A DNA stretch of 64,000 nt from positions 378 through 64,377 of the forward strand of contig QBLU01000007.1 in the NCBI GenBank assembly GCA_003241875.1, read 5' to 3'. This DNA comes from Alphaproteobacteria bacterium. GTDB lineage: Bacteria; Pseudomonadota; Alphaproteobacteria; Sphingomonadales; Sphingomonadaceae. Shown in pieces: positions 151-37,000 of this stretch (the stretch's first letter is position 1; every line of letters begins with the position of its first letter). A program made the translations under genes and the position numbers. The notes under the pieces are model-generated. The model made no database searches, was not told the DNA's origin, and saw nothing but the letters and a program-made list of their open reading frames with translations.

Positions 151-178
151 ATGCGAACATCTGTATCCCATGCGAACG
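151..178. promoter_or_regulatory. Direct repeat ATGCGAAC, putative IclR operator
   Basis: ATGCGAACA (151-159) and ATGCGAACG (170-178) form a direct repeat with a 19-nt period, between the divergent starts at 135 and 198. The same octamer occurs at 11052-11059 and 36992-36999, each time just upstream of a start codon. PcaU/PobR-type IclR proteins are known to bind combinations of inverted and direct repeats. The assignment to the local IclR protein is inference. Confidence 0.45.
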
Positions 179-197
179 AAACTGGCTAGGATGCCGC

Positions 198-1082
198 ATG
201 GACGATGCACCCTGGACGATGACCGAGGCGGCGGCACTGGCGCTGGTCGGGCGGGTGCGCGCCGGCCGCCGGCTGGCGCCCGCGCATTGGCCCGGCGGCG
301 CGCGCGCGGCGGTGGCGCTGTCGTTCGATTGCGATCATGAGACGTTCGAGCTGGGCGGCGGCGGCCGGGCCATCGGGCGGCTGGCGTGGGGTGAATTCGG
401 GCGGCGGGTCGGGGTGCCGCGCATCCTCGACGTGCTGGCGCGGCGCGGCGTGCCGGCGAGTTTCTTCATGCCGGGCCTGTGTGCGCGCATCGATCCCGAC
501 GAGACGCGGCGGATCGTCGGTGCCGGCCACGAGGTCGGGCTGCATGGCTGGATCCACGAGAACAACAGCCGGCTCGACCATGATACCGAGCGGGAGCTGG
601 TGTTGCGTGCCCATGATATCCTGACGCCGCTGATCGGCGCGCCGCCGGTCGGCTTCCGGTCGGCAAATTGGGATCTGTCGCCCCACACCATCGCCATCGT
701 GGCGGAACTCGGGCTGCGGTATGACAGCTCGCTGATGGCCGACGAGGCGCCCTATGAGTTGCTGCTCGACGGGGCGCCGACGGGGGTGGTCGAGATCCCG
801 GTCGAATGGCTGCGCGACGATGCGGTCTACCTGATGTTCAACCGCAATCCGCCGACGCGGCCGCTGATGACCCCCGATGACGTGTTCGCGATCTTCCGCC
901 GCGAGCTCGGTGCGGCGTTCGATGAGGGCGGGCTGTTCCAGCTGGTGATGCACCCGTTCGTCATCGGCTATCGATCGCGCATCTGGATGCTGGAGGCGCT
1001 GATCGACCATGCCCGCAGCCGCGGCGACATCTGGTTCGCGACGCATGCCGAGGTCGCCGATTGGGTCTGGGCCAACCGGTAG
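198..1082 (+). CDS. Polysaccharide deacetylase family (PuuE/PgdA-like) metal hydrolase
   Basis: This 294-aa cytoplasmic NodB-fold hydrolase should cleave a C-N bond (deacetylase, or amidase/cyclic-imidase-like activity) with a metal. Visible motifs are FDCDHE (D44 and D46), LHGWIHE (H116 and H120 of the HxxxH metal motif), GFRSANWD near 152-159 and MHPF with H252. The phrase EFGRRVGVPRILDVL and the lack of a signal peptide fit the subgroup that includes allantoinase-like PuuE and HpPgdA rather than secreted chitin deacetylases. The ATG at 198 has AGG at 188-190; an upstream in-frame extension to 102 is rejected. It ends in a large inverted-repeat terminator. The putative operator upstream suggests co-control with the aminotransferase and decarboxylase operons. 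The substrate is unknown. Confidence 0.8.
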   Translation: MDDAPWTMTEAAALALVGRVRAGRRLAPAHWPGGARAAVALSFDCDHETFELGGGGRAIGRLAWGEFGRRVGVPRILDVLARRGVPASFFMPGLCARIDPDETRRIVGAGHEVGLHGWIHENNSRLDHDTERELVLRAHDILTPLIGAPPVGFRSANWDLSPHTIAIVAELGLRYDSSLMADEAPYELLLDGAPTGVVEIPVEWLRDDAVYLMFNRNPPTRPLMTPDDVFAIFRRELGAAFDEGGLFQLVMHPFVIGYRSRIWMLEALIDHARSRGDIWFATHAEVADWVWANR

Positions 1083-1207
1083 GGCCTCCGGCGGCTGGGG
1101 CCTTGGCCCCAGACCCCATTTCGTTGGGCGTCCATCACCACGAGTGGGGGCCATGCACGATTTGAATCGAGTGGGGTGTGGGGCCAAGGCCCCAGCCGCC
1201 GGAGGCC
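1083..1207. terminator. Large inverted repeat, bidirectional terminator
   Basis: Arms 1083-1118 and 1172-1207 (36 nt each) are complementary at 35 of 36 positions, with a 53-nt loop. Each arm also folds on itself through GGGGCCTTGGCCCC. It fills the gap between the convergent stops at 1082 and 1209, so it probably terminates both genes. No T-run follows, as is common in GC-rich genomes. It may be a copy of a dispersed repeat. Confidence 0.7.
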
Positions 1208-2857: not shown

Positions 2858-3730
2858 TCAGGTGGGGCGGCGGGTGGCGAGCAGCCAGCGCGCCGCGGGT
2901 GGCGTGCCGACGTCCTCGACGCTGACGTCGAAGCCGGAGGCGCGAAGGCAACCGGCGGCGTCGGCGATATCGGCAGCGGTGGGAGCGGCGGCGACCATTG
3001 CCTGCATGCGGGCGCCATGGGCAGTGACGCCGGCGGCGAGAGCATGGGTGCCGGCAATGGGATCGGCGACGTCCTGCAGCGCCGAAATGGCGCGCCAGAC
3101 GCCTTCGAGCACGCTGGTATTGCCCGCCGAAGCGGCGTGATCGACGATGGCGGTGCGCAGGGCGTCGATATCGGCAACGCTGGCCGGCGACGGCGCGCGA
3201 AAATGTGCCGCCAGCCTGTCGAAGGGCGCTATCGGCCCGGCCAGCCAGGCGACCTGCGCGGCCTGTTCCCGGGCGTCGTCGTGGACGGGACCGCCCGCCG
3301 CATGGACGAGCAGCCACAGGCGATCGGCCGCGACGCGCGCGGCCTCGGCGACGGCGGCGGCGAAACCGGCATATTCGATGCCGAACTGGCTGGTGACCAC
3401 CGTGAAGGCGCGGTCGGCATAGGGCAGGCTGGCGGCGCTGCCGACATGGAGCGGGAAGAAAGTGTCCGCAATCGGCGCCGCGTCGACGCCCTGGAGACGC
3501 GTGATGCCGGCGTCCCGGGCAGCCGCCAGGACGGCGCCGCGACCGCAGCCGAGATCGAGCAGGCTGGCGTCGGGCGCGAGGCCGGTAAGCAACTGCCGCC
3601 AGCGCGCACCGATCGCCGTGCGCAAGGCGGGCGGCAGGCCCTTGGTACAGCCGTCGACGTCGGCGTCGACCCAGAACGCTGCCCACGGGGCGGGCAGGGT
3701 CGCGCAATCAGGAATCGGCAACGGCGGCAT
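2858..3730 (-). CDS. Class I SAM-dependent methyltransferase
   Basis: This 290-aa cytoplasmic protein has a Rossmann SAM-binding core. Motif I is LLDLGCGRGAVL near residue 70, the post-I acidic turn is LQGVDAAP, and the motif II region is SLPYADRAFTVVTSQFGIEY. The last third is alanine-rich and helical and probably binds substrate. Start ATG 3730 removes an unlikely upstream extension. Its stop is 14 nt before the DUF885 start, so the two are probably one transcript, divergent from the TonB receptor at 3965. The methyl acceptor is unknown; the SQFGIEY segment resembles ubiquinone or small-molecule methyltransferases. Confidence 0.75.
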   Translation of the reverse strand: MPPLPIPDCATLPAPWAAFWVDADVDGCTKGLPPALRTAIGARWRQLLTGLAPDASLLDLGCGRGAVLAAARDAGITRLQGVDAAPIADTFFPLHVGSAASLPYADRAFTVVTSQFGIEYAGFAAAVAEAARVAADRLWLLVHAAGGPVHDDAREQAAQVAWLAGPIAPFDRLAAHFRAPSPASVADIDALRTAIVDHAASAGNTSVLEGVWRAISALQDVADPIAGTHALAAGVTAHGARMQAMVAAAPTAADIADAAGCLRASGFDVSVEDVGTPPAARWLLATRRPT

Positions 3731-3817
3731 CGGCCCACAGCATAACAATTTTGCAACAGATACCAGCAAAAACTTGTACGCATAGCGTGCCACCGTGCGC
3801 CAAGCGCGCAAATGCGA

Positions 3818-3964: not shown

Positions 3965-6928
3965 ATGGGGATCATGATGCAGACGGCCAGGTCGGTGGCC
4001 GTGAGGCGTTCGCCAGGTAAACATTTCCTGTTGGCGTCTGCCATTCTCGGCTTGCCGGCGGCCGCACTGGCGCAGGCGACACCGCCCGCCACCGACACCG
4101 CCGCTGCGCCGGGGGAGGAGGCGGCGATTATCGTGACCGGTTCCCGGCTGAGCCGCTCCGGCCTCGAAGGCACCAGCCCGATCGTGGCGCTGTCGGGTGA
4201 GGCATTGGTCGCACAGGGCCAGACGACGCTCGAGGCCGGCCTGAACCAGCTGCCGCAGCTGCAGCCGTCAACGACGTCGAGTTCCAACCAGTCCGGCGGC
4301 TCGGGCGTGCTGTCGGCCGACCTGCGCGGGCTTGGCCCGGTGCGCACGCTGGTGCTGGTCGACGGTCGCCGGTTCATTCCGGCCGATTTTTCCGGCTTGA
4401 CCGATCTTGCCACTATTCCCGACCTGATGCTCGACAGGGTCGACGTCATCACCGGCGGCGCTTCGGCGATCTATGGCTCCGACGCCATCGCCGGCGCGGT
4501 CAATTTCGTCCTTAAGCGTGATTTCGACGGCCTGCAGGGCCAGTATACCTTTGGCGAGACCGATCGCGGCGACGGCCGCAGCCACAAGATCGACGTGATG
4601 ATCGGCGCCAACAGTGCCGATGGCCGCGGCAACGTCACCGGCTATTTCAGCTATACCAAGCGCGACGCCGTATTGATGGGCGATCGTGAGTTCTCGGCGC
4701 TGCCGTTGCTGGCCGACGCCACCGGCAAGTTCCAGCCCTTCGGGTCGGGCAATATCCCGGGCGGCGCCATCGCGCTCAACAGCCAGCAGCTGGCGCAGAT
4801 CCGGGGCGTCCCCGATCTCAACAATGCCTCGGGCGCCTGCAATACCGGCAATGCCGGCATCCGCTTTACCGAACCCGGCGGTCGCCCGGAACCGTTCTGC
4901 CGCCTGCGCGACCAGTTCAATTACGCGGCGCCGAACTTCCTGCTGCGCCCGCTGGAGCGCTACCAGGCGGCGGTGACCGCGCATTACGGCATTACCGACC
5001 GCATCGAGGCCTATGGCCAGTTCTTCTACACGCGGAAGGAAAATTCCTTCCAGCAGGCGGCCGAGGCGGTGAACCCGTCGAGCTCCGGCCAGACGGCGGG
5101 CACGGTGCTGATCCCCAATGCGACGACCAATCCGCTGTTCAGCCAGGCGCAGCGCGACTTCTTTTCGGCCAATGCCGCCTTCTTCGATCCCGATGGCGAC
5201 GGCACCTACACGGTGCGCGGCTATGGTCGCCGGTTCGAGGAGTTCGGGCCGCGGACGGTGAACTTTGTCACCACCAGCTTCAATGTGACGGGCGGGCTGC
5301 GCGGTGACTTCGACATCGGCGGGAACCAGTGGAAGTGGGACACATTCTTCCAGTTCCAGCAGGCCGACGAGAACAACCGGCGGCTCAACCTGCTGTCGCG
5401 GTCGCGGACCACCGCGGGCCTCGACGTCGTGCTGGTCAACGGCGTGCCCCAGTGCCGGAACCGCGAGATTCCGGGCTGCGTCCCGGTCAACATCTTCGGT
5501 ACCGATACGCTGACCCCGGCGATGGCGCAGTTCCTCAGCGTCGACACGACGACGACGAACCAGTTCAAGCGCACCGTCGCCGGCGGCAGCATTTCCGGCG
5601 ATGCGTTCGCGCTACCGGCGGGCAATGTCGCAACGGCGTTCGGCGTCGAATATCGCCGCGACAGTTTCAACATCCGGCCCGATGAAGTGGCGCTGTCGAA
5701 CGACCTGGCCGCCGTTTCGGTGCCGCCGATCGTCAATTCGGGCAATTACGACCTGTTCGAGCTGTTCGGCGAGGTCCGCGTGCCGATCCTGGCGGATGTG
5801 CCGGGCTTCAAGACGCTCGCGGTCGAAGCCGCCGGGCGCTACGCCAAATATTCGACGATCGGCGGGGTCTTCACCTGGCGCGCGGCCGTCGACTGGGAGG
5901 TGACCGACTGGGTTCGCCTGCGCGGCAACTACAGCCGCGCCATCCGCGCGCCGAACCTGTCGGAGCTGTATGCGCCGACCAGCCAGGGTTTCATCGGCGG
6001 TCGCGATCCGTGCCTGGCCGTCAATTCGCCGACGCAGCAGCAGAAGGAACTGTGCGTGGCGCAGGGCGTGCCGCGGCAGTTCGTCGACACGCTGACGGTC
6101 GGCGCCAGCCAGGGTTTCAACACCGAAAGCGGCGGCAACCTGTTGCTGGAGGAGGAGACCGCCGACACGCTGACGCTGGGTGCCGTGTTCAGCCCGGCGC
6201 GCGGCCTGGCGCTGACGGTCGATTTCTACGACATCAAGGTCAAGGGTGCGATCTCGCAGCTCGGTGCGCAGGTGCTCATCGACACCTGCTTCAATACGCT
6301 GGCTGCGGCGAGCGTGTCGTGCCAGGCGATCAACCGCGACAGCTTCTCCGGCAACATCAACTTTGTCCGGGCGCCGTTGCTCAACGTTGCCGAGCGCCGG
6401 GTCCAGGGTCTCGATGTCGGGGCCAGCTACAGCTTCGACCTGCCCAGCGCCATCAGCATTTCGGGCGACGGCGCCCGTCTCGGGCTGCAGGCCAATGTCT
6501 CGTGGCAGTTCAAGAACACGACGATCGCCGCCGAAGGGCTGCCGACGATCGACTGCGCCGGCTATTACGGCGGCGCCTGCTCATCGGATTCGACCCGCAT
6601 CTCGCCCGACCTGCGCGCCTTTGTCGGCATCGACTACACCAGCGGCGGCGTGTCGCTGCGCAACCAGCTGCGCTACATCGGTTCGCTCGACCTGCTGCCC
6701 GGTGCGCCGCCGTCGGAATCGGGTACCTTGGGCGCGGAAACCTATTGGGACATTTCGGCCCGCTGGAATTTCGTGACCAACTTCACGGTCTTTGGCGGCA
6801 TCAACAACGTGCTCGACAACCAGCCGCCGGTCATGGGCTTTGCCGCGGGTGGCGATTCGAACACCAACCCGCAGTTGTACGACGTGATCGGCCGGCAGTA
6901 TTTCGTCGGCGTCGGGGTCAAGTTCTAG
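3965..6928 (+). CDS. TonB-dependent outer-membrane receptor
   Basis: This 987-aa receptor imports a ligand across the outer membrane with TonB-ExbBD energy. A signal peptide (about 1-36, ending LPAAALA) is followed by a TonB-box-like AAIIVTGSRL. The plug domain shows VRTLVLVDGRRF and VDVITGGASAIYGSDAIAGAVNF. A 22-strand barrel follows, ending in the aromatic YFVGVGVKF. The GGASAIYGSDAIAG signature marks the large sphingomonad/Caulobacter family with peptide-like or complex organic ligands; no siderophore signature is visible. The start has a good ribosome-binding site. A DUF885 gene follows after 46 nt, so the receptor and hydrolase are probably co-transcribed and share a substrate. Confidence 0.9.
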   Translation: MGIMMQTARSVAVRRSPGKHFLLASAILGLPAAALAQATPPATDTAAAPGEEAAIIVTGSRLSRSGLEGTSPIVALSGEALVAQGQTTLEAGLNQLPQLQPSTTSSSNQSGGSGVLSADLRGLGPVRTLVLVDGRRFIPADFSGLTDLATIPDLMLDRVDVITGGASAIYGSDAIAGAVNFVLKRDFDGLQGQYTFGETDRGDGRSHKIDVMIGANSADGRGNVTGYFSYTKRDAVLMGDREFSALPLLADATGKFQPFGSGNIPGGAIALNSQQLAQIRGVPDLNNASGACNTGNAGIRFTEPGGRPEPFCRLRDQFNYAAPNFLLRPLERYQAAVTAHYGITDRIEAYGQFFYTRKENSFQQAAEAVNPSSSGQTAGTVLIPNATTNPLFSQAQRDFFSANAAFFDPDGDGTYTVRGYGRRFEEFGPRTVNFVTTSFNVTGGLRGDFDIGGNQWKWDTFFQFQQADENNRRLNLLSRSRTTAGLDVVLVNGVPQCRNREIPGCVPVNIFGTDTLTPAMAQFLSVDTTTTNQFKRTVAGGSISGDAFALPAGNVATAFGVEYRRDSFNIRPDEVALSNDLAAVSVPPIVNSGNYDLFELFGEVRVPILADVPGFKTLAVEAAGRYAKYSTIGGVFTWRAAVDWEVTDWVRLRGNYSRAIRAPNLSELYAPTSQGFIGGRDPCLAVNSPTQQQKELCVAQGVPRQFVDTLTVGASQGFNTESGGNLLLEEETADTLTLGAVFSPARGLALTVDFYDIKVKGAISQLGAQVLIDTCFNTLAAASVSCQAINRDSFSGNINFVRAPLLNVAERRVQGLDVGASYSFDLPSAISISGDGARLGLQANVSWQFKNTTIAAEGLPTIDCAGYYGGACSSDSTRISPDLRAFVGIDYTSGGVSLRNQLRYIGSLDLLPGAPPSESGTLGAETYWDISARWNFVTNFTVFGGINNVLDNQPPVMGFAAGGDSNTNPQLYDVIGRQYFVGVGVKF

Positions 6929-6974: not shown

Positions 6975-8633
6975 ATGAAGAACCGGGTATTGGCGGCGGT
7001 CGCACTGGCCGCGCTCGCAACGACGCTGGTCCCGGTCGGCACAGCCGGGATGGCGATCGCGGCGGAGGCGCCGACCGGGCGCGGCAGTTACCAGGACCTG
7101 CTGACGCTGTGGGGCGATTTCCTCAAATGGCGCGACACACCGCCGGTGGATGGCGTCGGTGACTGGAGCGCCGCCGCCGTCGACGCGCAGCGCGCCACGA
7201 TGGACGACTATCTGCGCCGCATCGAGACGCTGAACGTCGCCGCCATGCCGCGGGCGCAGCAGGTCGAATGGCTGGCAGCGCGATCGAAGATGCTGCAGCA
7301 TTATTTCCTGCTGAATGCCGCCAAGCCCTGGGAGCGAGATCCGGGCTTTTACGTCGACCAGATGCTCGACGTGTCGTTCACCGAACTGCCGGCCAAGGGC
7401 GAGGCGCTGGCCAAGCTGCAGAAGGAGCTGCGCGCCGTGGCGCCGCTGGTCGCTGCCGCCAAGCGCAACCTGCGCAACGTGCCGGGCGACTATGCCGACC
7501 TGGCGCTGCACAATCTGAGTGCCGCCGACGGCGTCGGCCATGGCCATCCGTATCGCAAGGTGCCGCCGGCCGGCATCCTGGGCTGGTTCGACGACCTTGC
7601 CGGACGTGCCAGGACGACGCAGCCCGAACTGCTTCCCGACATTGCCGCGGCGCGCGCGGCCGCGGTCGATTTCCAGGGCTGGCTGAAGGCCGGTCGCCCG
7701 CAGATGACGGCCAAGGCCGGGGTCGGCGAGGCGCGGTTCGACTGGTATCTGAAGAACGTCAAGCTGCTGCCCTATACGGCCGCGCAGTTGCAGGTGCTGG
7801 GCGCCCGCGAGACGCAGCGGCTGTGGTCGATCCATGCCCTGGAGGAGCACCGCAACCGCAAGCTGCCCCGGCTGGAGCTGCCGACCAGCGAGGCCGAGTA
7901 CGAGCGCCGCAAGACAGAATCGCTGCAACGCATCCGCAAATGGATCGCCGACGAAGGCATCATCACGGTGCCGGAGGATATCGGCGACCTGTATGTCAAC
8001 GTGCCTTGGATCGTTCGCACCGGTGACCCGAACTTCTGGGAGCTGGTGCAGTATCGCGATCCCAGTCCCGACCTGCTGCACGCGACGCTGCCGGGCCATG
8101 CGTTCGACGGGCAGATGGCCAAGCGCGACAAGCGGCCGATCCGCGGCCGGATCGGCGACGGCGTGCGCGCCGAAGGCTGGGGCGTCTATCTGGAGGAAGC
8201 GGCGCAGAAGCTCGGCTTCTTCGAGGACCGCGGCCGGGTGCGCGAGCTGATCGACATCTTCGGCATCTTCCGCGCTGTGCGGGTGGCGGGGGATATCGAT
8301 CTGCAGCTCAACCGCAAGACGGTGCCCGAGGTGGTCGCCGACTGGCGCAAGTACACGCCCTGGCTCGATGCCAATGTCGCGCGGGTCGATGCCGAAATCT
8401 ACCTGCGGCGGCCGCCGGGCTATGGCCTTGGTTATACCGTGGGCATGATCGAGATGCAGAAGCTGCTGGCCGACCGCCGTCACCAGCTCGGCGACAAGTT
8501 CGAGCTGAAGGCCTTCCATGATGAATTCATGGCCGTCGGGCGCCTGCCGATGTCGCTCGTCCGGTATGACATGACCGGATATGACGACGAGATCCGCAAT
8601 TTCTGGACGCGTGATCCGCTGCCGCCTGCCTAG
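6975..8633 (+). CDS. Secreted DUF885 family protein with altered zinc motif
   Basis: This 552-aa protein has a signal peptide (MKNRVLAAVALAALATTLVP, cleaved after AIAA). The DUF885 core is recognisable: LLHATLPGHAFDG sits at the HExxPGH position but with the Glu replaced by Ala, and VRAEGWGVYLEE matches the conserved EGW(A)LYxE segment. The tail has YLRRPPGYGLGYTVG and DEFMAVGRLPMSLVRY. It therefore retains the His residues and the EGW Glu but not the catalytic-type Glu. ATG 6975 follows GGAG at 6965-6968; an in-frame GTG at 6963 is less likely. It is probably translated with the TonB receptor upstream and is a distant paralogue of 1209-2843. Confidence 0.78.
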   Translation: MKNRVLAAVALAALATTLVPVGTAGMAIAAEAPTGRGSYQDLLTLWGDFLKWRDTPPVDGVGDWSAAAVDAQRATMDDYLRRIETLNVAAMPRAQQVEWLAARSKMLQHYFLLNAAKPWERDPGFYVDQMLDVSFTELPAKGEALAKLQKELRAVAPLVAAAKRNLRNVPGDYADLALHNLSAADGVGHGHPYRKVPPAGILGWFDDLAGRARTTQPELLPDIAAARAAAVDFQGWLKAGRPQMTAKAGVGEARFDWYLKNVKLLPYTAAQLQVLGARETQRLWSIHALEEHRNRKLPRLELPTSEAEYERRKTESLQRIRKWIADEGIITVPEDIGDLYVNVPWIVRTGDPNFWELVQYRDPSPDLLHATLPGHAFDGQMAKRDKRPIRGRIGDGVRAEGWGVYLEEAAQKLGFFEDRGRVRELIDIFGIFRAVRVAGDIDLQLNRKTVPEVVADWRKYTPWLDANVARVDAEIYLRRPPGYGLGYTVGMIEMQKLLADRRHQLGDKFELKAFHDEFMAVGRLPMSLVRYDMTGYDDEIRNFWTRDPLPPA

Positions 8634-9517: not shown

Positions 9518-9546
9518 CGGCGCGTCATTTTCCTGTTGCAAGTTGT

Positions 9547-11022: not shown

Positions 11023-11043
11023 TGCATCTCGATAGCGCACACA

Positions 11044-11060
11044 TGGACGTCATGCGAACA
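11044..11060. promoter_or_regulatory. Putative IclR operator in the divergent promoter
   Basis: CATGCGAACA at 11051-11060 is identical to the right side of the palindrome at 36987-37000; the left arm here is imperfect (ACGTC at 11047-11051). It sits 22 nt upstream of the dehydrogenase ATG and 84 nt upstream of the aminotransferase ATG, so it could control both. Confidence 0.45.
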
Positions 11061-11143
11061 CTTATGTCTTGCCTTGATTGTTGCCAGCGTCATAAATGCC
11101 CGCGGGCGGACGCCGGTCCGCAGCCGGCATCGGAGCCTGTTTC

Positions 11144-27818: not shown

Positions 27819-28648
27819 CAGCCCTTGACCGCCCCGGCGCCGAAGCCCCTGACCAGATGGCCCTGCAGGAAGGCCAGGATGATGATCAACGGCACGCTCA
27901 TCATCACCGACGCCGCCATCAGCAGCGACCATTCGATGTTGAAGCCGCTGACCAGCATGGTCATCACGCCGGTGGTCAACGGCCGCACGTCATCGGCATT
28001 GACGAGGACGAGGGCGAACAGAAACTCGTTCCAGGCAAGGATGAAGGTGAACAGCGCCGTCGAGATGATGCCGGGCAGCACCTGGGGCAGCAGTACGTCG
28101 AAAAAGGCCCCCATCCGCGAGGCGCCGTCGATCAGCGCGGCCTGTTCGATCTCCACCGGCACCGCCGCCATGAAGGTACGCAGCAGCCACAGCGCATAGG
28201 GCAGGGCAAAGCTGGTATAGGCGATGACCAGGCTGGCGATGGTGTTGGCAAGGCCGAGCCTGACCATCAGCAGGTACAGCGGGATGATCAGCACCACCGA
28301 CGGCAGCATATAGCAAAGCAGCACCGCCGAGGCGATTGCCTCGCGCCCGCGATAACGAAAGCGCGCCAGGCTGAAGGCACCGAGCACGGCGAGCACGACG
28401 ACCACCGTTGTCGTCGCGGTCGCGATCACCACCGAGTTGGCGAAATATGCCGGAAACGCCGTCTCGGTCAGGAGGACGGCATAATGTTCCAGGGTCGGCT
28501 CCACCGGCAGCAGCGTCGGTTCCAGCGAGAACACCTCGTCTTCCGACTTCAGCGAGGTTGCGACCATCCAGAGCAGCGGCCCCGCCACCAGCAGGATCAG
28601 GCTCCAGGCCAGCAGGCTCCAGCCGGTGCGAGCCAACCGCGGGCTCAT
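27818..28648 (-). CDS. ABC transporter permease (MalG/UgpE-like)
   Basis: This 276-aa inner-membrane protein has six predicted helices and the ATPase-contact EAA loop EQAALIDGASRMGAFF followed by LPQVLPG. The N-terminal helix, SLARFRYRG and the periplasmic HYAVLLTET segment fit the MalG half of CUT1 importers. ATG 28648 overlaps the stop of the other permease (ATGA). It forms the channel with 28645-29532. Confidence 0.9.
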   Translation of the reverse strand: MSPRLARTGWSLLAWSLILLVAGPLLWMVATSLKSEDEVFSLEPTLLPVEPTLEHYAVLLTETAFPAYFANSVVIATATTTVVVVLAVLGAFSLARFRYRGREAIASAVLLCYMLPSVVLIIPLYLLMVRLGLANTIASLVIAYTSFALPYALWLLRTFMAAVPVEIEQAALIDGASRMGAFFDVLLPQVLPGIISTALFTFILAWNEFLFALVLVNADDVRPLTTGVMTMLVSGFNIEWSLLMAASVMMSVPLIIILAFLQGHLVRGFGAGAVKG

Positions 28649-29532
28649 GTCCGGCCCCGCACGGCAAGCCGATAGAGCAGGAAAAAGCCCAGCATGGTGA
28701 TCATCATGGCAACGGCATAGGCGGCGGCCATGCCCATGCGGTTGAGGCCGAAAGCTTCCTGATAGACAATCAGCGGCAGCGTACGCGTCGCATCGACCGG
28801 CCCGCCGCCGGTCAGCAGGTAGACGAGATCGAACTCCTTGAAGTCCCAGATCGCCCGCAGCAGCACGACGATGCCCAGCACCTCGCCGATCTGGGGCAGC
28901 GTGACATCGCGGAACCGGCTCCAGGCCCCGGCCCCGTCGAGCCGGGCCGCGTCGTACAGGGACTCGGGAATGGTCTGCAGCCGCGCCAGTACGGCGATGA
29001 CGACGAAGGGAAAGAACTTCCAGGCGCCGACGACGATGACGCTGAGCAGGGCGCTAGGCATGGTGCCGAGCCAGTCGAGCGGCGCCGCGATCACCCCGAT
29101 TTTCATCAGGAGCTGGTTCGCCAGCCCGAACATGTCGTTGAACAGCCAGCGCCAGACGAGGACGGCGACCACCGTCGACACGAAATAGGGAAACAGCACC
29201 AGGCTGCGGGCGAGGCTGCGCAGCCACAGGTCGCGATTGAGCAGCAGCGCCATCGCCACGCCGATCACGATCTGCAGCGCCAGCGTTGCCGCTGTCCACA
29301 CGAGCGTCACGCCGAGCGCCGGCCAGAAGCGCCCGTCGGCGCCCAGCAGCTCGGCGTAATTGCCCAGCCCGACGAAGCGCGAGCGCAGCGTCGGCGTGTC
29401 GACGGCAAAGGCCGACAGGGCAATGGCGGCGAAAAGCGGATAAGCGATGACGGTGCCGAGCACGAGCACGACCGGCGCGATGAGCAGCGGGCCGAGCGAC
29501 CGGTCGCCAAGGTGATGCAGGGCCGGCCTCAT
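28645..29532 (-). CDS. ABC transporter permease (MalF/UgpA-like)
   Basis: This 295-aa inner-membrane protein has six predicted helices and an EAA loop (ESLYDAARLDGAGAWSRFRD, then LPQI). The N-terminal YPLFAAIALSAFAVD and VGLGNYAELLG fit the MalF/UgpA half of a CUT1 importer. Its ATG overlaps the binding-protein stop by 4 nt, and its own stop overlaps the next permease. Confidence 0.9.
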   Translation of the reverse strand: MRPALHHLGDRSLGPLLIAPVVLVLGTVIAYPLFAAIALSAFAVDTPTLRSRFVGLGNYAELLGADGRFWPALGVTLVWTAATLALQIVIGVAMALLLNRDLWLRSLARSLVLFPYFVSTVVAVLVWRWLFNDMFGLANQLLMKIGVIAAPLDWLGTMPSALLSVIVVGAWKFFPFVVIAVLARLQTIPESLYDAARLDGAGAWSRFRDVTLPQIGEVLGIVVLLRAIWDFKEFDLVYLLTGGGPVDATRTLPLIVYQEAFGLNRMGMAAAYAVAMMITMLGFFLLYRLAVRGRT

Positions 29533-30896
29533 CGTGGGACGTCGGCGCCGCGCATGATGGCGGCAATCCGGCTGCTGGCGCGGGCGACCGCCGCCTTGGC
29601 AGATTCCCCGGAGATGACGACACGTTGCACCATCTCGGCAATGGCATGGCTGGCGATGATCTCCCCGGCCTTGGTATTCGGCCGATGGGCCGGGCTTTCG
29701 AAACCGAGGTTGTGGCCGGCAGCGGCGGCCCTGGTCATGGTCGCAATCTGGGTGGCGAACAGCGAGGTGATCGGGTTGCCGCGATAGTCAGGGCTGTCGG
29801 TGATACCCTGGAGAACGGGCAGCACATGGCCCGGGGCCGCCAGCATCTGCCGCACATAGCCGGCGGGTTCGTACAGCGATGACGCCAGCGCCTTTGTCGC
29901 CGCGATCTCGGTGGCGCCTTTCGGAATGAACAGGCACGGAAAGTCGTTGAAGGTCCACGACGGCGTCGCGACCGTCTGGCTGGGGTAGGGCACGCAGACC
30001 AGGGTGCGCGCCATCCTGGGGTTCTGCCGCGCCGCGCTGATCAGGACACGGCCGCCATAGATGCCGGTGGCGGTCGCGCCCGATACAAAGGCGTTGAGGC
30101 TGTCGGACCAGCCGTAGCTGCTGGCGCTGGGCGGGCAATATTCGCGCATTGAGCGGTAGAATTCCAGCGCGGCATAGGTCGGCGCGCTGTCGAGCGCCAG
30201 TTGCAGGTCGGGCGTGAAGACCTGGCCGCCGGCGCGGTGGATGAAGGAGATGAAGACCAGCGACGTCATGCTGTTGCTGCCATAGGGCAGGGGTGCGCCA
30301 TAGATGCGCTTCGTCTGCATCCGGCGGCAGGCGTCGCGCAACGCGTCCCAGTCGCGGGGCGGGGTGTCGATCCCGGCCGCCGCCATCAGGTCGCGGCGCA
30401 GCCAGAGCATGTCGACCGCCGTGCCGCCGATGGCGACGGCGCTGAGGCGTCCGTCGGCAGCCCTATAGGGCGCATTGGCGCCAGGCAGGAAACGCGCCGC
30501 GCCGATCGTGGCGGCGACCCCGTCCATCGGCTCCAGCAAGCCTTGCGCGTAATAGCTTTGCGCCGCGAACGACGGCAGATGGGTGACGATGTTCGGCACT
30601 TGGCCGGCGGCAAAGGCGGCGGCGAACTGTGCCGGATAGCCTTCGTCCGAGGTCGGTTCGAACACGACGCGATAGCCGGGGTTGGCCGCCTCGAATCCGG
30701 CGATCTGCGCGCGATAGGCGCGCGCCTGCGCGGGTGCCGCCTGGGGGGACCACCAGCGCAGGACCTTGCGATCGTCGTTGCCACTACAGGCCGCCATTGG
30801 CAGGGCCAGCATCGGCAGGGCCAGGGCGCTGCCGAGCAGGCAGCGCCGATTCAGCAGCGGCGCTCCATTCTCGCCCGTTGTTGGCTTGCCGGTCAT
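29529..30896 (-). CDS. Extracellular solute-binding lipoprotein of the ABC importer
   Basis: This 455-aa family 1 solute-binding protein has an N-terminal lipoprotein signal with the lipobox LPMAAC (C37), so it is anchored in the inner membrane facing the periplasm. The mature part starts with VLRWWSPQAAPAQARAY and shows the bilobed pattern of sugar-type binders (TPPRDWDALRDACRRM, GIYGGRVLI). ATG 30896 has a weak ribosome-binding site; ATG 30935 is an alternative. It is separated from the DAO gene by 158 nt that may hold a second promoter. CUT1 binders usually take sugars, polyols or their phosphates; the ligand here is unknown. Confidence 0.85.
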   Translation of the reverse strand: MTGKPTTGENGAPLLNRRCLLGSALALPMLALPMAACSGNDDRKVLRWWSPQAAPAQARAYRAQIAGFEAANPGYRVVFEPTSDEGYPAQFAAAFAAGQVPNIVTHLPSFAAQSYYAQGLLEPMDGVAATIGAARFLPGANAPYRAADGRLSAVAIGGTAVDMLWLRRDLMAAAGIDTPPRDWDALRDACRRMQTKRIYGAPLPYGSNSMTSLVFISFIHRAGGQVFTPDLQLALDSAPTYAALEFYRSMREYCPPSASSYGWSDSLNAFVSGATATGIYGGRVLISAARQNPRMARTLVCVPYPSQTVATPSWTFNDFPCLFIPKGATEIAATKALASSLYEPAGYVRQMLAAPGHVLPVLQGITDSPDYRGNPITSLFATQIATMTRAAAAGHNLGFESPAHRPNTKAGEIIASHAIAEMVQRVVISGESAKAAVARASSRIAAIMRGADVPR

Positions 30897-31028
30897 TGCT
30901 ACGCTGTCTTGCCGCCCCTGTCTGACATCGACCATGGCGCCGGGATGGGGAAGGGTGCAAGACCGGCGCGCGGCGTCGCAGGATCGCGCGACCGACGGCG
31001 CCGCGGCCAAGGCCGAGGTGATATCCCT

Positions 31029-31058
31029 ATTTTTCAAAGATATACGAGACATTCTCAA
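31029..31058 (-). promoter_or_regulatory. Possible internal promoter for the ABC part of the operon
   Basis: On the minus strand TTGAGA (31058-31053) is followed after 18 nt by AAAAAT (31034-31029). This AT-richer patch stands out in a GC-rich operon and lies in its only sizeable gap. The match is moderate. Confidence 0.3.
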
Positions 31059-32245
31059 GTCCGCGCCGCGCGTGTCGGTGCCGCTTGTGCGGGTAAAGCA
31101 ACGTTGAAGCGCTCCGGACGAAAGGCTTCGATGTCGGCAATCGGCACGCGCCCGAGAATATCGTCGGCCACCATCCGCGCCGCCAGGGGTCCAAGCGTAT
31201 AGCCGGCGTCGCCCGGGATCGCGATGGCAAGCCCGGGGCTGGTCGCCACCCGGCCCAGCACGCCACGTCCGTCGACGACCGTGTTGTTGCCCGCCCAGCA
31301 GCGGATGATCCGCAGCAGCCCCAGTGCCGGCACGACATGCAGGCCGAGCGTGGCGCTGGCGACCAGGCTGTCGAGCTCCAGCCCCGGCGCAGCGCTGCCC
31401 TCGGCGGCCCGCGCCGGCCAGCCACCACCGATGACGATTTGGCCGGCGGCGAGCTGCTTCAGCGTGATCATCCGGTCGGCATGCTGGACCAGGTGCCCGA
31501 TCAAGGGCTGCGCCGGCTCGGTGATCGCGATATTGAGCGGCTCGGCGATGCTGGGGATCGCCAGCCCAAACGGAGTCGCCAGCCGCCCGCTGTCCCAGGC
31601 TGCGGCAATTATCACCTGACGGCAGTGCAGTGGCCCGATGGCACTGTGGACGACATAGCCGTCGCCGTCGGCGACGATATCCGTCACATGCACGCCGCGC
31701 CGCCAGAGCACGCCCAGGCCGCGCGTCCAGCCTGCCAGCCCACGATTGGCCGCCAGTGGATTCAGCTTGCCTTCGTTACGGCACAGCTCGGCCCCGATGA
31801 TCGCCGGGCCGAGATAGGGCGCCATCTGCCGGACAGCTTCGGACCCCAGGATTTCGACGTCGAGGCCGATCTCGCGTTCGCGCGCCGCCTTGGTTTCGAG
31901 AAAGGCGAGCTGTTCCGGGGTTTCCGCAACCATCAGCCCGCCGGTCAGCTTCAGCTCGAAATCGAGACCCAGCCGGGTACCGAGTTCGGCCCAGAAGCGC
32001 ACGGCGAGCGGGTAGAGCGGCAATTGGGCCTCGAGCCCCGGCACCCGGTCGGGATAAAGCCGCATGAACCGGCTCTGCATCTGGACGTGGAGACTGCCCG
32101 CGTTGCTCGTCGAACCGGCCGCATGCCCGGCGTCGAGCACGGTTACCGCCATGCCCGCTTCGGCCAGGAATCCGGCGATGCAGGTGCCGACGACCCCGCC
32201 GCCGATCACGACCGTGTCCGTGCGCTCCGCCGCGCTGTCGCTCAT
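31055..32245 (-). CDS. FAD-dependent oxidoreductase of the DAO family
   Basis: This 396-aa flavoprotein has the dinucleotide fold DTVVIGGGVVGTCIAGFLAE near the start and SNAGSLHVQMQSR after it. The C-terminal GNNTVVDGRGVLGRV and GDAGYTLGPLAARM close the FAD site. DAO proteins oxidise amino or imino acids at the C-N bond. Its ATG overlaps the stop of the ferredoxin-FAD fusion (ATGA). That pair matches the layout of HcnBC, opine oxidase and D-hydroxyproline dehydrogenase complexes, where electrons pass to the respiratory chain. Confidence 0.85.
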   Translation of the reverse strand: MSDSAAERTDTVVIGGGVVGTCIAGFLAEAGMAVTVLDAGHAAGSTSNAGSLHVQMQSRFMRLYPDRVPGLEAQLPLYPLAVRFWAELGTRLGLDFELKLTGGLMVAETPEQLAFLETKAAREREIGLDVEILGSEAVRQMAPYLGPAIIGAELCRNEGKLNPLAANRGLAGWTRGLGVLWRRGVHVTDIVADGDGYVVHSAIGPLHCRQVIIAAAWDSGRLATPFGLAIPSIAEPLNIAITEPAQPLIGHLVQHADRMITLKQLAAGQIVIGGGWPARAAEGSAAPGLELDSLVASATLGLHVVPALGLLRIIRCWAGNNTVVDGRGVLGRVATSPGLAIAIPGDAGYTLGPLAARMVADDILGRVPIADIEAFRPERFNVALPAQAAPTRAART

Positions 32246-33801
32246 CCGGCCAGTTCCGCGATCGTCACCGGCCGCACCGGCGCCCGCGGCGCCAGGCCGA
32301 CCGGGACAGACTCCGGCGACAGCCTCGCCAGCAGTGGCACACAGCCGCGCCCCTGGCAGCGGCCCATGCCGAGCCGGGTGGCCTGCTTGATCGCGGCATG
32401 ACTGTACGCGCCTGCCGCTTGCGCCGCCGCGATGTCTTCTGCAGTCACGCCTTCGCAGCGGCAGATGATCGTCGTGGGCGTGATATGGCCGAGCAGCGGC
32501 CGGGCGGGGGCATAAAGCCGCCACAGCGCCGCCTGGAACGCCGCGGCGCGCTGCATCCGCGCCTGCGCCTCGCCCGGATCGGCAGCGAGGCCGAGGTATC
32601 GCGCCGCCGCCGCCCCTGCAAGCGTACCCGCCGCCGCCGCGACATGCGCGCCGCCGATCGTCGTGCAGTCGCCGGCAATAAAGACCCCAGGCGGCATGGT
32701 GTTCGTCGACAGGCCCGGCATGGCCCCTAGTGCCCGGGGCAGGGCAGTTTCAGGCACCAGTCCATAGCCAAGGCACAGCATGTCCGCAGCCAGCCGTTCA
32801 CCGCCGTCGGTCTCGATCTCCAGCCCGGCCGCGATCGAAGTGACCTGCGTTGCCCATAGCGTCGGCACGCCCGCCCGTCGCAACCGCGCGCGATAGGCGA
32901 TGCCCCGACGGACCAGCCCCGGTGCCGCAGCCGCCATGCGCGCCACCGTTCCGACACGGCCGAGCCCGGGGGCGGGCGCAGCCTCGACCAGCGCGGCGAC
33001 ATCGGCCCCGGCCGCCAGCAATTCGGCGGCGAGTTGCAGGTTGAGTGGACCGTTGCCGGCGATGACGATGCGACCCGGCGGAATGCGTCCGGCGGTGCGC
33101 AACAGGCCCTGGGCGGCGCCGGTGGACATGACCCCGGGCAGGGTCCAGCCCGGCACCGGCCAGGCGGTTTCCTGCGCCCCGGTCGCCACCACGACCGCCC
33201 GCGGCCGGATTCGGAACGCCGCGCCGCCCCGGCTGGCGGCAAACTCCAGACCGGCGAAAGCGCCCCAGACCGTCGTTTCCGAAAGTATCTCCACCCCGGC
33301 CGCCTGTACCCGGGCGATCAATGCCGCTCCTTCGGTGGCCTGCGCATCGATCGGCATGCCGGCGATGTCCGGCTGCTTGTAATATTGGCCACCGGCGCTG
33401 CCGCGTTCATCGACCAGCAGGACGTTCAAACCAGCCCGCCGGGCGACCAGCGCTGCCGACAGGCCTGCCGGGCCGGCGCCGATCACCAGGACGTCCGGCC
33501 GCCGCTCCGGCAGGTCTGCGGCTCGCCGGGGCGGTGCGGACGCCATTTTGTGCAGCTTCGCGCGCTCCGTGGCAGGCGCTGCCGTCATGCCCGCGGCGAC
33601 CTTGACCATGCAGGCGCGCCGGTTCGGCATGCCGTCGACGTTGACGAGGCAGGCCTGGCACGCCCCCATGCCGCACCATGCGCCTTGCGCGGCGCCTTGG
33701 CCGTCGTGCCGCAGGGTCGTGATCCCGGCGGCGGTCAGGGTCGCCAACAGGCTTTCTCCCGGGCGTGCCGGCAGGGCCTGTCCGTCCCAGTCGATGAACA
33801 C
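32242..33801 (-). CDS. Fused ferredoxin / FAD-NAD oxidoreductase / BFD-like subunit (HcnA-HcnB type)
   Basis: This 519-aa fusion has three parts. Residues 1-85 form a [2Fe-2S] domain with C43, C48, C51 and C64 (CGMGACQACL). Residues about 100-400 form a pyridine-nucleotide-disulfide-type FAD domain (VLVIGAGPAGLSAAL, VIAGNGPLNLQLA, GVFIAGDCTTIGG). The last 90 residues carry a BFD-like cluster site (CRCEGVTAED and GMGRCQGRGC). In relatives such as HcnA/HcnB, OoxA or NoxA these are usually separate chains. It starts with GTG 33801, four nt after the hydrolase stop, and overlaps the DAO gene. Probably the electron-transfer half of an amino/imino-acid dehydrogenase. Confidence 0.85.
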   Translation of the reverse strand: MFIDWDGQALPARPGESLLATLTAAGITTLRHDGQGAAQGAWCGMGACQACLVNVDGMPNRRACMVKVAAGMTAAPATERAKLHKMASAPPRRAADLPERRPDVLVIGAGPAGLSAALVARRAGLNVLLVDERGSAGGQYYKQPDIAGMPIDAQATEGAALIARVQAAGVEILSETTVWGAFAGLEFAASRGGAAFRIRPRAVVVATGAQETAWPVPGWTLPGVMSTGAAQGLLRTAGRIPPGRIVIAGNGPLNLQLAAELLAAGADVAALVEAAPAPGLGRVGTVARMAAAAPGLVRRGIAYRARLRRAGVPTLWATQVTSIAAGLEIETDGGERLAADMLCLGYGLVPETALPRALGAMPGLSTNTMPPGVFIAGDCTTIGGAHVAAAAGTLAGAAAARYLGLAADPGEAQARMQRAAAFQAALWRLYAPARPLLGHITPTTIICRCEGVTAEDIAAAQAAGAYSHAAIKQATRLGMGRCQGRGCVPLLARLSPESVPVGLAPRAPVRPVTIAELAG

Positions 33802-33805
33802 CTGC

Positions 33806-35515
33806 TCAGGGATAGCGCCAGCTCGTCAGGTCGGCGCCGGCCGGCGCGGTCTTTGCGATCCGGGCAAGGATCTTGGGCACATACATGCTGTTGTAGCGCA
33901 GCCGGGTGATCGCATTGGGCAGGCTGGGGTCGCCATTCCAGCAATGCTCGGCGCGATCGCCATAGGTGACTTCGCCCTGATACGGCGGATCGGCCTTCTT
34001 CAGAAAATCCTCCATCAGATAGACCGCGTTGTTGAGGTAGAAATTGTCCATGTCGCCGACATGGATGTGGATCTTGCCCTGCAGCTTTGGACCAAGCGTC
34101 GCCCAGTCGCGTTGCATGATGTGCCGAAGGTCATAATTCTCGCGCCAGTGCGCCGCCACAGCCTTGTCGATGACGCCGCTGGTCTTGTCCCAGATCGGCT
34201 TGGGATAGCCGTCCGCGCCCATCGGGGAATAAACTGCGTCCCAGATATCCCATTGGCCCCCCGACCGTGATTTCGACCCTATGACACGTTCGTAACGATT
34301 TTCCATCTCGTTGGTCCAGCCGACATGGCCGAGATAATTGCGATTGACGAAGCGCGGCACCCTGCCGAACGGCCCCTGTTTCCAGAATGCGTTGTCGTCC
34401 TCGTAGATGTTTACGACCTTGGTTTGCCGGAAATCGACGGTGTCGGGGCAGGCGGCAAAGGCGCCGTTATACTCGTCGGGGTAAAAGACCTGAACGGCCA
34501 ATGCCTCCCACCCGCCGGTCGAGCCGCCATAGGTGAACCTGGCCCAGCCGGCGCCGATGCCGCGGAATTTTTTCTCCAGCGCCGGCAGGAATTCATGCTG
34601 GATCGCGTCGCCATAGGGCCCCAGATTGGCCGAATTCACCGCATAGCTGTCGTCGAAATACGGGTTGCTGTGGTCGATCTCGACGACAAGGAAGCGCGGG
34701 AAGTCGGGCGATATCCATTTCTTGTAGAAATCATGCGCCTCCTGCTGCTCGACGCGATTGTAGCAGGGGTGGTTGAAGCGGGCGTTCGGCACACAGACGA
34801 GGCCGGGATCGGGCGGGGTCTCGCGAAAGCCGGCGAAATCCTCCGGGAAATGGCCGTGGTTGACCATCACCGGAAAGCGTGCGTTCGGATGTTTGTCGAA
34901 ATCGCGCGGTACCAGCACATAGGCGTTGAGGAATGTGTCGCGTCCCCAGAACTTCGACAGGCTGGAGCTGCGGAACTTGAACGTCCGCACAAAGGTCCCA
35001 TCCTTGGGAGGCGCGATCGGCGGGAGGGCCTTTTCCAGCACAAGATCGATCGGGCTGGCTTGCGCCGGGTCGAATTCGATCTCCATGACCGGGCTGACCA
35101 GGTTGCCCGGCTCCTTGCGCCAGTTCTGGCCGGCGCCGCGCGCCGCGGGCAGCTTGACGGTCTTGCCACTTGCCAGGGTGTACGTGTCGTATTTGTGCAG
35201 GATCGCCTGCGCGAAATAGCGTCCCTTGGGTACCTGCCCGAGCGTTTCGAGCGGGTAGCCGGTGACGCCGCTACCGATGGTCACCGATTGGCCGGCGCGC
35301 ATCGCCACGGCGTCGACGCCAAACACCTGGGCCGAGGTGTCGCTGCGATTGGCCTGGAACCGCGGCTCGGTGCCACCATTCTTTGTCAGCACGACGAGCA
35401 CGCGGCCGTCATATTCGCGCTGCGGCTGTCCTGGCCCCAGCGTCACGCGCAGGTCGTTGGCTGCAGCCGGCGCCGCCAGCGCCAGCGCGATCAACCAGGG
35501 CGCGTAACGCCGCAT
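33806..35515 (-). CDS. Secreted alpha/beta hydrolase, paralogue of 14122-15846
   Basis: This 569-aa exported protein has a short signal peptide (MRRYAPWLIALALAAPAAA). It matches the 14122 protein throughout, including LPAARGAGQNWRKEPGNL, NRVEQQEAHDFYKKW, the nucleophile motif YGGSTGGWE, VGDMDNFYLNNAVYLMEDF and the catalytic-His segment RAEHCWNGD. The stop of the decarboxylase and this ATG share a base (TGATG), so it is coupled as the second gene of the operon. Its presence ties this operon to the plus-strand TonB-peptidase operon and suggests a shared substrate class with an ester or amide bond. Confidence 0.82.
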   Translation of the reverse strand: MRRYAPWLIALALAAPAAANDLRVTLGPGQPQREYDGRVLVVLTKNGGTEPRFQANRSDTSAQVFGVDAVAMRAGQSVTIGSGVTGYPLETLGQVPKGRYFAQAILHKYDTYTLASGKTVKLPAARGAGQNWRKEPGNLVSPVMEIEFDPAQASPIDLVLEKALPPIAPPKDGTFVRTFKFRSSSLSKFWGRDTFLNAYVLVPRDFDKHPNARFPVMVNHGHFPEDFAGFRETPPDPGLVCVPNARFNHPCYNRVEQQEAHDFYKKWISPDFPRFLVVEIDHSNPYFDDSYAVNSANLGPYGDAIQHEFLPALEKKFRGIGAGWARFTYGGSTGGWEALAVQVFYPDEYNGAFAACPDTVDFRQTKVVNIYEDDNAFWKQGPFGRVPRFVNRNYLGHVGWTNEMENRYERVIGSKSRSGGQWDIWDAVYSPMGADGYPKPIWDKTSGVIDKAVAAHWRENYDLRHIMQRDWATLGPKLQGKIHIHVGDMDNFYLNNAVYLMEDFLKKADPPYQGEVTYGDRAEHCWNGDPSLPNAITRLRYNSMYVPKILARIAKTAPAGADLTSWRYP

Positions 35516-36954
35516 CAGGCGGCTTCAGGACGCGCGAACGACGCGGCCAGCAGGTGGGGCGGCACCCGGAAGCGGCCTGCAACATCCTTCAACTGCTCAC
35601 GCTCGGTGATCACCGCATGGCGGCTGCCGCTGACCAGCACCGTCGCGGGCAGCAACTGGGCATTGTAGCGTGCGGCCGCGCTTTCGGTGTAGCCGCCGGC
35701 ATCGAGGAACGCGACAAGGTCGCCCCGCGCCAGCGCCGGCATCGGCCGATGTGCGCCGAGCTCATCGGAATTGCACAGGGGCCCCACCAGATCGACGGTC
35801 TCATGCGCTTCCGCCCCGGCATCGTGGACGCGCACCGCATGATAATACCAGTCGAGTACCGCCGCCCAGGACAGGTGGTTGGTCGACAGGTCGAGGTTGA
35901 CCCAGGTCTTGGCACCGCGCTTGACGGCACCGACGCGGCCCACAGCGACGCCCGCCGGCCCGGACAGCGCCCGGCCCGGCTCCAGCCGCAGTTTCGGCAG
36001 CGGCAGGCCCAGCTTTTCGGCCTCGTCCTTGATCGCGTCGCAGACGGCCTGCGCATAATCCGCCGGCGTCGGCGCATCGGGCCCGTCGATCTGCCCGTTT
36101 GGCCCGGTTCCGTACCATTTGCCGAAGGTCCAGCCGCCACCGATGTCGATCGTCGGCGGCGTCCAGCCGGTGGTGTCGCGCAGATAGCCCGACCAGGTGA
36201 TCATCTCGCGCGCCATGACGGCAAAATCGGCGGGTTCGTTCGACATGCGGGACAGGTGGAAATGCGTTTCCTGCAACCGCACGGTCGGCATGGCCAGCGC
36301 GCGGCGCACGATGTCGGCGGTCTGTTCGCGGGTCATGCCCCATTTGGTGCTGTCGCTCTGATGCTTGAGCGAACCCGGGCCATGCATCGCCACGCCCATG
36401 CGATCGCGCAGCGGCTCCAGATCGAGCTTCAGGCGGATGCCGATATTGGCGATTGTGCCGAGGCGATCGGCGATCGCTGCGATGCGGTCGAGTTCGTCCT
36501 CGGCATCGATGTTGATGCACAGCCCGTTGGCGATGGCCATTTCGAGCTCGTCGTCCTGCTTGTTCGACCCGTTCAGCACCAGGGTCGCCGGATCGGTCCC
36601 GGCCAGCAGCGCCATGTACATTTCCTGGGCGCCGAAACAGTCGCCGCCGGCGCCCTCTTGGTTCATGATGTGCCGGATGGCGAGGCCATTGTTCGACTTG
36701 TTCGCAAACAGGATTTCGACATCCGGATACGCGTTGGCGAACGCATCGCGGAAGGCGCGATAGTTCTGGCGCAACTGGTTCTCCGAAATGATGAACAACG
36801 GTGAGCCATAGGTCTCGATAAGCTTTTCGACGTCGCAGTTATCGACCCAGAGATTGCCGTTGGCACCGATCCCGATGAACTCACCGAAACGGGCACCATA
36901 GGCCGGGGGCAGCAGTGGCGGCGCAAATCTCGGGTTGTGCACGTCGTTCTCCAT
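35515..36954 (-). CDS. Fold-III PLP-dependent decarboxylase (LysA-like)
   Basis: This 479-aa enzyme has an alanine-racemase-like barrel and a C-terminal beta domain. The PLP lysine is in LFANKSNNGLA. Other marks are THFHLSRM, the glycine loop IDIGGGWTFG, EPGRALSGPAG, the catalytic Cys in GPLCNSDEL and DAGGYTESA. It is longer than typical DAP decarboxylase (about 420) and has an N-terminal extension, so biosynthetic LysA is unlikely; a catabolic decarboxylase of an amino or diamino acid is inferred. It is first in the minus-strand operon, with the palindrome TGTTCATGCGAACA 33 nt upstream of ATG 36954. It would release an amine suited to the omega-aminotransferase at 11144. Confidence 0.8.
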   Translation of the reverse strand: MENDVHNPRFAPPLLPPAYGARFGEFIGIGANGNLWVDNCDVEKLIETYGSPLFIISENQLRQNYRAFRDAFANAYPDVEILFANKSNNGLAIRHIMNQEGAGGDCFGAQEMYMALLAGTDPATLVLNGSNKQDDELEMAIANGLCINIDAEDELDRIAAIADRLGTIANIGIRLKLDLEPLRDRMGVAMHGPGSLKHQSDSTKWGMTREQTADIVRRALAMPTVRLQETHFHLSRMSNEPADFAVMAREMITWSGYLRDTTGWTPPTIDIGGGWTFGKWYGTGPNGQIDGPDAPTPADYAQAVCDAIKDEAEKLGLPLPKLRLEPGRALSGPAGVAVGRVGAVKRGAKTWVNLDLSTNHLSWAAVLDWYYHAVRVHDAGAEAHETVDLVGPLCNSDELGAHRPMPALARGDLVAFLDAGGYTESAAARYNAQLLPATVLVSGSRHAVITEREQLKDVAGRFRVPPHLLAASFARPEAA

Positions 36955-36986
36955 GCTCGAGGCGTGATCTGGGGTTCAACTCGTGA

Positions 36987-37000
36987 TGTTCATGCGAACA
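36987..37000. promoter_or_regulatory. Palindromic operator TGTTC-N4-GAACA
   Basis: TGTTCATGCGAACA is an inverted repeat with 5-bp arms and a 4-bp centre, 33 nt upstream of the decarboxylase start. Its ATGCGAACA half is shared with sites at 151-178 and 11052-11060. The rest of the 340-nt gap up to 37294 shows only a 6-bp stem at 37135-37152 and no gene that I recognise. Confidence 0.55.

Follow-up and report, generated by a model that had tools for sequence, protein, structure and literature searches.

A stretch of 64,000 nucleotides (nt) from a Sphingomonadaceae genome (assembly GCA_003241875.1, contig QBLU01000007.1, positions 378 to 64,377; hereafter the window) carries a three-box DNA element that is conserved in relatives and concentrated in an accessory catabolic island. 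We propose, from sequence comparison, that the IclR-family protein encoded at 8741-9577 probably binds these elements as operators and controls the island as one regulon, its own gene included. The original prediction for this DNA was that one IclR regulon joins three units (a deacetylase/DUF885 pair, a dehydrogenase/aminotransferase pair and a decarboxylase operon) through two signals, the word ATGCGAAC and a palindrome, TGTTCNNNNGAACA. This proposal is upheld for the first two units by a matrix built from relatives only, by conservation and by the IclR-type geometry of the boxes, whereas the site proposed for the third unit is not. Neither ATGCGAAC nor TGTTCNNNNGAACA is the operator, which is instead a 26-mer of three boxes.

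Exact copies of ATGCGAAC occur where they had been placed, at 151, 170, 11052 and 36992, all on the forward strand, and their distances from start codons are as noted (deacetylase ATG at 198, aldehyde dehydrogenase start at 11022, aminotransferase ATG at 11144 and decarboxylase start at 36954). All four copies are intergenic, although intergenic DNA makes up about 4.9% of positions 1-37300 in our own gene table. The number of copies is at chance, however, with 4 observed against 3.35 expected and at least four in 38 of 100 shuffles of the 64-kb window, and bare counting of the word was dropped as evidence because the count is at the shuffle mean. A modest excess is seen for the 9-mer ATGCGAACA, with 3 copies against 0.6 expected, a number reached in 1 of 100 window shuffles. 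Across the genome (3,823,547 bases in 111 contigs) it occurs 14 times. By reading, 5 of the 14 copies are intergenic, of which the window has three and contigs C28 and C56 have one each. Mechanically called open reading frames (ORFs) span the copies at window position 151 and on C28, which we called intergenic since the likely starts lie further in. The C28 copy belongs to a sister cluster, where it is flanked by genes for a DapA-like protein and an amino-acid oxidase; that on C56 was not called by the later operator model. In the genome-wide word scan that had been suggested, TGTTCNNNNGAACA has a single copy in 3.8 Mb, the one in the window at 36987-37000, which is close to its chance rate (0.03 per 64 kb in window shuffles, or about one to two per genome).

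Side-by-side comparison of promoters from the window and its relatives revealed ATGCGAAC to be one box of a longer element, GCGNACA-N2-TGTNCGC-N3-GCGNACA, in which the boxes run direct, inverted, direct and the outer two are 19 nt apart. The 19-nt repeat at 151/170 corresponds to boxes 1 and 3. Operator P1 (153-178, forward strand; GCGAACA-TC-TGTATCC-CAT-GCGAACG) lies between a divergent DUF885 gene (reverse strand, start near 135 by reading) and the deacetylase gene (198, forward), and operator P3 (11035-11060, forward; GCGCACA-CA-TGGACGT-CAT-GCGAACA) occupies the divergent promoter of the aldehyde dehydrogenase-IclR genes (reverse) and the aminotransferase gene (forward). Operator P2 (3775-3800, reverse), which the original prediction had overlooked, separates methyltransferase-like and DUF885 genes (reverse) from the divergent genes for a TonB-dependent receptor and a DUF885 protein (forward). 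Two strong sites on C28, also overlooked, precede genes that are paralogous to those for the DapA-like, amino-acid oxidase and DUF885 proteins of the window (L004:3977-4021, equivalent to G000:C28:4476-4520, and L046:2708-2743, equivalent to G000:C28:11107-11142; G, C and L numbers denote genomes, contigs and loci). The 19-nt period and the N2 and N3 spacers are present in P1, P3 and the C28 sites.

A scoring matrix was built from 20 sites in relatives, none of them from this genome, and its training sites score 19.6-35.5 bits. The top three positions in the window were 153 (28.4 bits), 11035 (26.5 bits) and 3775 (17.2 bits), followed at 14.0 bits by a position inside the decarboxylase gene; C28 yielded 25.5 and 36.3 bits. 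Simulated sequence of about 40 Mb gave scores of at least 25 bits at 0.1 per 3.82 Mb and of at least 17 bits at 0.15 per 64 kb, and 128 kb taken elsewhere in this genome gave one match of at least 15 bits, at 16.7 bits. Allowing up to three mismatches, the consensus matched the genome 8 times at 6 places, and the reversed pattern once. Five of the six places are in the island, at window positions 153, 3775 and 11035 and at C28:4495 and C28:11117. As separate observations, the sixth, C59:7384, scores only 9.5 bits by the matrix and is probably a chance match, as is L009:15960 (G000:C89, about 101 kb), which lies outside the island and scores 16.7 bits.

Relatives carry sites at the corresponding positions. 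P1-type sites upstream of the deacetylase gene were found in G286, G403, G360, G214, G406, G276 and G307 (20.3-34.5 bits), and sites upstream of the aminotransferase gene in G286, G214, G406, G276, G307, L021 and L023 (18.0-25.6 bits) and in G360 (15.1 bits). The P2 block is conserved in G214, G406 and G403, and sites at the P2 position in G286, G276 and G307 score 29.3, 20.2 and 20.6 bits. In alignments with relatives, the boxes of P2 and P4 are kept while their flanks diverge; those of P1 are kept less strictly. The comparison with orthologous upstream regions that had been suggested favours P1 and P3 but not the palindrome (see below). In a leave-genome-out scan, matrices to which the five sites of this genome also contributed were run over 412 kb from 11 relatives. 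They gave 45 non-overlapping sites of at least 18 bits, of which 34 lie outside mechanical ORFs or within 120 nt of a start or 60 nt of an end; both members of the near-twin pairs G214/G406, G276/G307 and L021/L023 were counted. Two high-scoring operators were also seen outside the known island: L093:9883 (G286:C32), beside a potassium-uptake-like gene (named by reading), and L100:9199 (G360:C20), immediately ahead of a TonB receptor gene, beyond which lies a DapA-like gene.

Within the genus, the element is enriched in genomes that have the regulator. At E <= 1e-60, searches for relatives of the IclR protein picked out 3 of 199 and then 8 of 397 genomes of the family and, with its own genome counted, 6 of 24 of the genus; a separate scan returned seven IclR loci, whose named records carry the titles Sandarakinorhabdus, Sphingomonas, Sphingomonadales and Alphaproteobacteria. 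Several of the relatives' IclR loci are the same contigs, and some genomes are incomplete (G400, G402, G403 and G307, at 75-81%). The six IclR-bearing genus members have 8, 11, 8, 5, 9 and 7 consensus matches with up to three mismatches, against 0-5 in the 18 members without IclR (p = 1.8e-4), and the same comparison with the reversed control pattern gives p = 0.31. Overlapping matches on both strands of one place are scored separately in these per-genome counts. The IclR-bearing genomes outside the genus, G276, G307, G083 and G057, have 10, 9, 5 and 11 matches and were left out of the p-value, the test covering one genus with its IclR-negative members. Island genes follow the same distribution: the DapA-like gene of C28 is present in 6/6 IclR-bearing genus members, 0/18 others and 2/4 IclR-bearing genomes outside the genus, and the decarboxylase gene in 5/6, 0/18 (Fisher p = 1.4e-4) and 0/4, respectively.

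Several observations weigh against a single IclR regulon with this operator. The relatives' training sites were not chosen blind, and the consensus was drawn after the window and the relatives had been viewed together. Conservation of the middle box is poor in several sites, and P2 scores low in this genome. Outside the genus, only 3 of the 10 matches in G276, 3 of 9 in G307, 1 of 5 in G083 and 0 of 11 in G057 lie near IclR or island genes; the pattern thus discriminates poorly there, and its support is weaker. Even within the genus, G360 has only one of its five matches on an island stretch, and the reversed control gives six. Eleven of the 45 leave-genome-out sites lie deeper inside mechanical ORFs, some of which are clearly over-long, and that scan found no site of at least 18 bits in G057. 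In this genome, the matrix scan detected no convincing operator before the gene runs at 12749-24119 or 24302-36954. Finally, the genomes that lack IclR also lack both of the marker genes tested.

Three other explanations have to be set against the proposed regulon. Short GC-rich words near start codons could resemble each other by chance, as the window count of ATGCGAAC at the shuffle mean would allow, but the scores from the relatives' matrix, the simulation and the conservation contradict this, and we regard it as very improbable. The original prediction as written, in which the operator is ATGCGAAC together with the palindrome TGTTCNNNNGAACA and binding takes place at all three units, the third at 36987-37000, also appears unlikely. 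The palindrome, TGTTCATGCGAACA, does have an intergenic position, 33 nt away from the start of the decarboxylase gene, and contains one perfect box, GCGAACA; a homologous decarboxylase operon has a three-box site in three relatives. The stretch at 36987-37000, however, is unsupported as an operator of the three-box type: it scores -1.6 bits in the covering register (reverse strand), nothing above -0.1 bits was found at start positions 36941-37040 on either strand, and on these scores it was rejected as a three-box site in any register. TGTTCNNNNGAACA as an operator was likewise rejected for its single, roughly chance-level copy in the genome. In G286, moreover, where an orthologous decarboxylase gene (87% identity) leads the same set of genes, nothing corresponding to the palindrome was found upstream of it. 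The relatives' sites lie elsewhere, upstream of the substrate-binding protein (SBP) gene in a homologous SBP-ABC-DapA-decarboxylase-SDR run, and score 27.3 bits in G214, 27.3 bits in G406 and 21.7 bits in G403; the G214 and G406 sequences are identical, and the G403 site is inside an over-long mechanical ORF but between matched genes. The third unit is part of the island within the genus and probably belongs to the regulon of some relatives. Because the homologous operon in three relatives has a good site elsewhere, the decarboxylase operon may belong to the regulon of this genome as well.

Alternatively, the operators might be real and be bound by another protein, either the LysR-type regulator of the island (23187-24119) or an IclR paralogue on C61 or C47. 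The tested island genes travel as a set, and co-occurrence cannot separate IclR from another island regulator such as this LysR because the genomes without IclR are also those without the marker genes tested; the genome also has further IclR-type helix-turn-helix matches (8 in all, 3 strong). On the other hand, the sequence and geometry of the boxes are of the IclR type, the operators adjoin the IclR gene in L021, L025/L039, L038, L042 and L040, and the paralogue loci on C61 and C47 showed nothing above 10.7 bits (2.5 and 3.2 kb examined). We therefore consider this explanation improbable, too, and favour the IclR protein at 8741-9577 as the binder of the three-box operators in the divergent promoters of the island.

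In the proposed model, this protein would work mainly as a repressor, because the core promoter is probably covered by P1 and P3, which sit about 13-45 nt ahead of the starts of the aldehyde dehydrogenase, deacetylase and DUF885 genes. P3 is about 84 nt upstream of the aminotransferase gene; for P2 the distances are 42 nt to the methyltransferase-like gene, which it precedes, and 165 nt to the TonB receptor gene. The IclR gene lies behind the aldehyde dehydrogenase gene, which suggests autoregulation, and a substrate or intermediate of the pathway would release the protein from its operators. The regulon predicted within the window comprises the DUF885/deacetylase pair, the methyltransferase-DUF885 and TonB-DUF885 pairs, the aldehyde dehydrogenase-IclR genes and the aminotransferase gene, from which read-through into 12749-24119 is possible. 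A promoter and terminator scan of 10950-12900 found no sigma-70-like promoter and one terminator-like site (0.9 expected), on the opposite strand and inside the aminotransferase gene. Two divergent promoters on C28, DapA-like/amino-acid oxidase and DUF885/SDR, would also belong to the regulon.

The three-box operator fits a known kind of IclR switch. A comparative survey (Suvorova & Gelfand, PMC8222616) describes, in the available sections, IclR sites in which three boxes alternate in direction and tandem centres are 18-22 nt apart, and it names PcaU, PobR and HmgR among the proteins with three-box motifs. Our element resembles the operators given there in having an inverted pair in the style of TGTYCRY-W3-RYGRACA plus an outer box, here with an outer period of 19 nt, but its box, GCGNACA, departs in detail from the PcaU and PobR sites in those sections (PMC8222616). 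The protein itself scores above the cut-off of the PcaR/PcaU/PobR profile TIGR02431, whereas the presumed targets in the island look like amino-acid, amine or peptide catabolism; no protocatechuate or hydroxybenzoate (pca/pob) enzyme model exceeded its cut-off among the matches listed for the scanned island proteins (the best 25 where a list was long), the rest of the genome lying outside this search. PheR of Sphingobium sp. SHPJ-2 is, as far as the available part of its description goes, an IclR repressor whose footprint overlaps the transcription start and which is released by its substrate (PMC13273656). As an IclR-family regulator in a sphingomonad, it provides a related precedent for the proposed release; it differs in its core, GCAACG, in controlling one operon and in responding to phenanthrene, and that part of the report states no such three-box repeat (PMC13273656). 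Our literature search returned nothing joining DUF885, a TonB-dependent receptor and IclR, or Sandarakinorhabdus and IclR, although an earlier prediction among the regulon tables of PMC8222616 is possible.

The middle unit, with the regulator gene that had been noted beside it, comprises the IclR gene (8741-9577, reverse; PcaR/PcaU/PobR subfamily, TIGR02431 296.8 bits against a cut-off of 284.75, PF09339 and PF01614), which overlaps the 3' end of the succinate-semialdehyde-dehydrogenase-like aldehyde dehydrogenase gene (9547-11022, reverse; TIGR01780 695 bits, cut-off 646.35), and the gene for a class III aminotransferase of the omega-amino/GABA type (11144-12535, forward; PF00202, NF004767 558.7 bits, cut-off 517), whose closest PDB chains, 5kr5 among them, are named 4-aminobutyrate transaminase. 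To its left lie genes for a polysaccharide-deacetylase/PuuE-like hydrolase (198-1082, forward; PF01522; 169.7 bits to 3rxz and 80.2 bits to PuuE 3cl6, and far below the PuuE model cut-off), a DUF885 protein (1209-2825, reverse; PF05960), a putative methyltransferase (2858-3733, reverse; identity and start by reading), which is beside TonB1 in relatives, the TonB-dependent receptor TonB1 (3965-6928, forward; identity by reading), similar genes to which are linked to IclR in G403, G276 and G307, and another DUF885 protein (6975-8633, forward; PF05960, PDB 3o0y 56.3 bits). Three DUF885 proteins were scanned, and a fourth lies at the left edge of the window. Downstream of the aminotransferase gene, M24, esterase-like, TonB2 (by reading), M20, M24, M24 and LysR genes run forward (12749-24119), and similar genes are linked to IclR in G057 and G083. 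The third unit (24302-36954, reverse) contains SDR, SDR, DapA-like, ABC transporter, DAO, Fer2/FAD, esterase-like and decarboxylase genes. A LysA-like protein is also among the island proteins.

Around the IclR gene of relatives we found aminotransferase, aldehyde dehydrogenase, DUF885, TonB1, methyltransferase-like and deacetylase genes, and in other relatives M24, esterase-like, TonB2 and M20 genes or DAO, Fer2/FAD and ABC genes. A single contig of G214 carries, in a span of about 50 kb, IclR, the ABC/DapA/decarboxylase operon, the deacetylase/TonB1 genes and relatives of the C28 genes. In G214, G360, G403, G406 and G276, the DUF885 gene beside the deacetylase gene borders on counterparts of the genes at the end of C28, the order in G403 and G406 having been followed up to the contig end. 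From this gene order in at least five relatives, contigs C28 and C89 are probably neighbours in the genome, the window lying near the left end of C89 and facing the left end of C28.

The proposed pathway would draw on TonB receptors, several hydrolases of the DUF885 and M24 types, flavin amino-acid dehydrogenases, DapA-like lyases, the omega-aminotransferase and the semialdehyde dehydrogenase. Tentatively, and with somewhat less than even confidence, we suggest a patchy, probably horizontally moving island of about 55 kb in Sphingomonadales whose genes, under one dedicated three-box IclR switch, specify an undescribed pathway for a peptide- or opine-like nitrogen compound. Of the parts of a hydroxyproline/opine pathway, which was considered as a candidate, DAO-type, Fer2/FAD-type and DapA-type domains are present; the similarity of the DAO-type and Fer2/FAD-type proteins to solved chains is weak. 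The adjacent DAO-type (31055-32242) and Fer2/FAD/BFD-type (32242-33801) genes, with a DapA-like gene and transporters near them, recall the flavin-containing D-hydroxyproline and opine dehydrogenases in the available sections of PMC4575208, from which they differ in the fused iron-sulphur/FAD subunit (PMC4575208). If the regulon is real, it would give DUF885 proteins a pathway context and unite enzymes of unassigned purpose (DUF885, M24 relatives and esterase-like proteins) in one candidate set for common regulation through a defined DNA signal. The pathway thereby becomes testable, and the inducer may lead to the substrate of the DUF885 and M24 enzymes. A word spotted by eye can thus lead to a real operator, even with part of the reading wrong.

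An M24 protein, a class III aminotransferase and a semialdehyde dehydrogenase form the combination found in ectoine degradation. That pathway was considered and rejected, the ectoine hydrolase model reaching 71.7 bits against a cut-off of 613. An M24-like protein of about 450 residues, with only modest Pfam M24 scores, occurs in three copies (12749-14119, 21737-23107 and L004:507-1844), and two large esterase-like paralogues, at 14119-15846 and 33806-35515, have weak Pfam matches or none.

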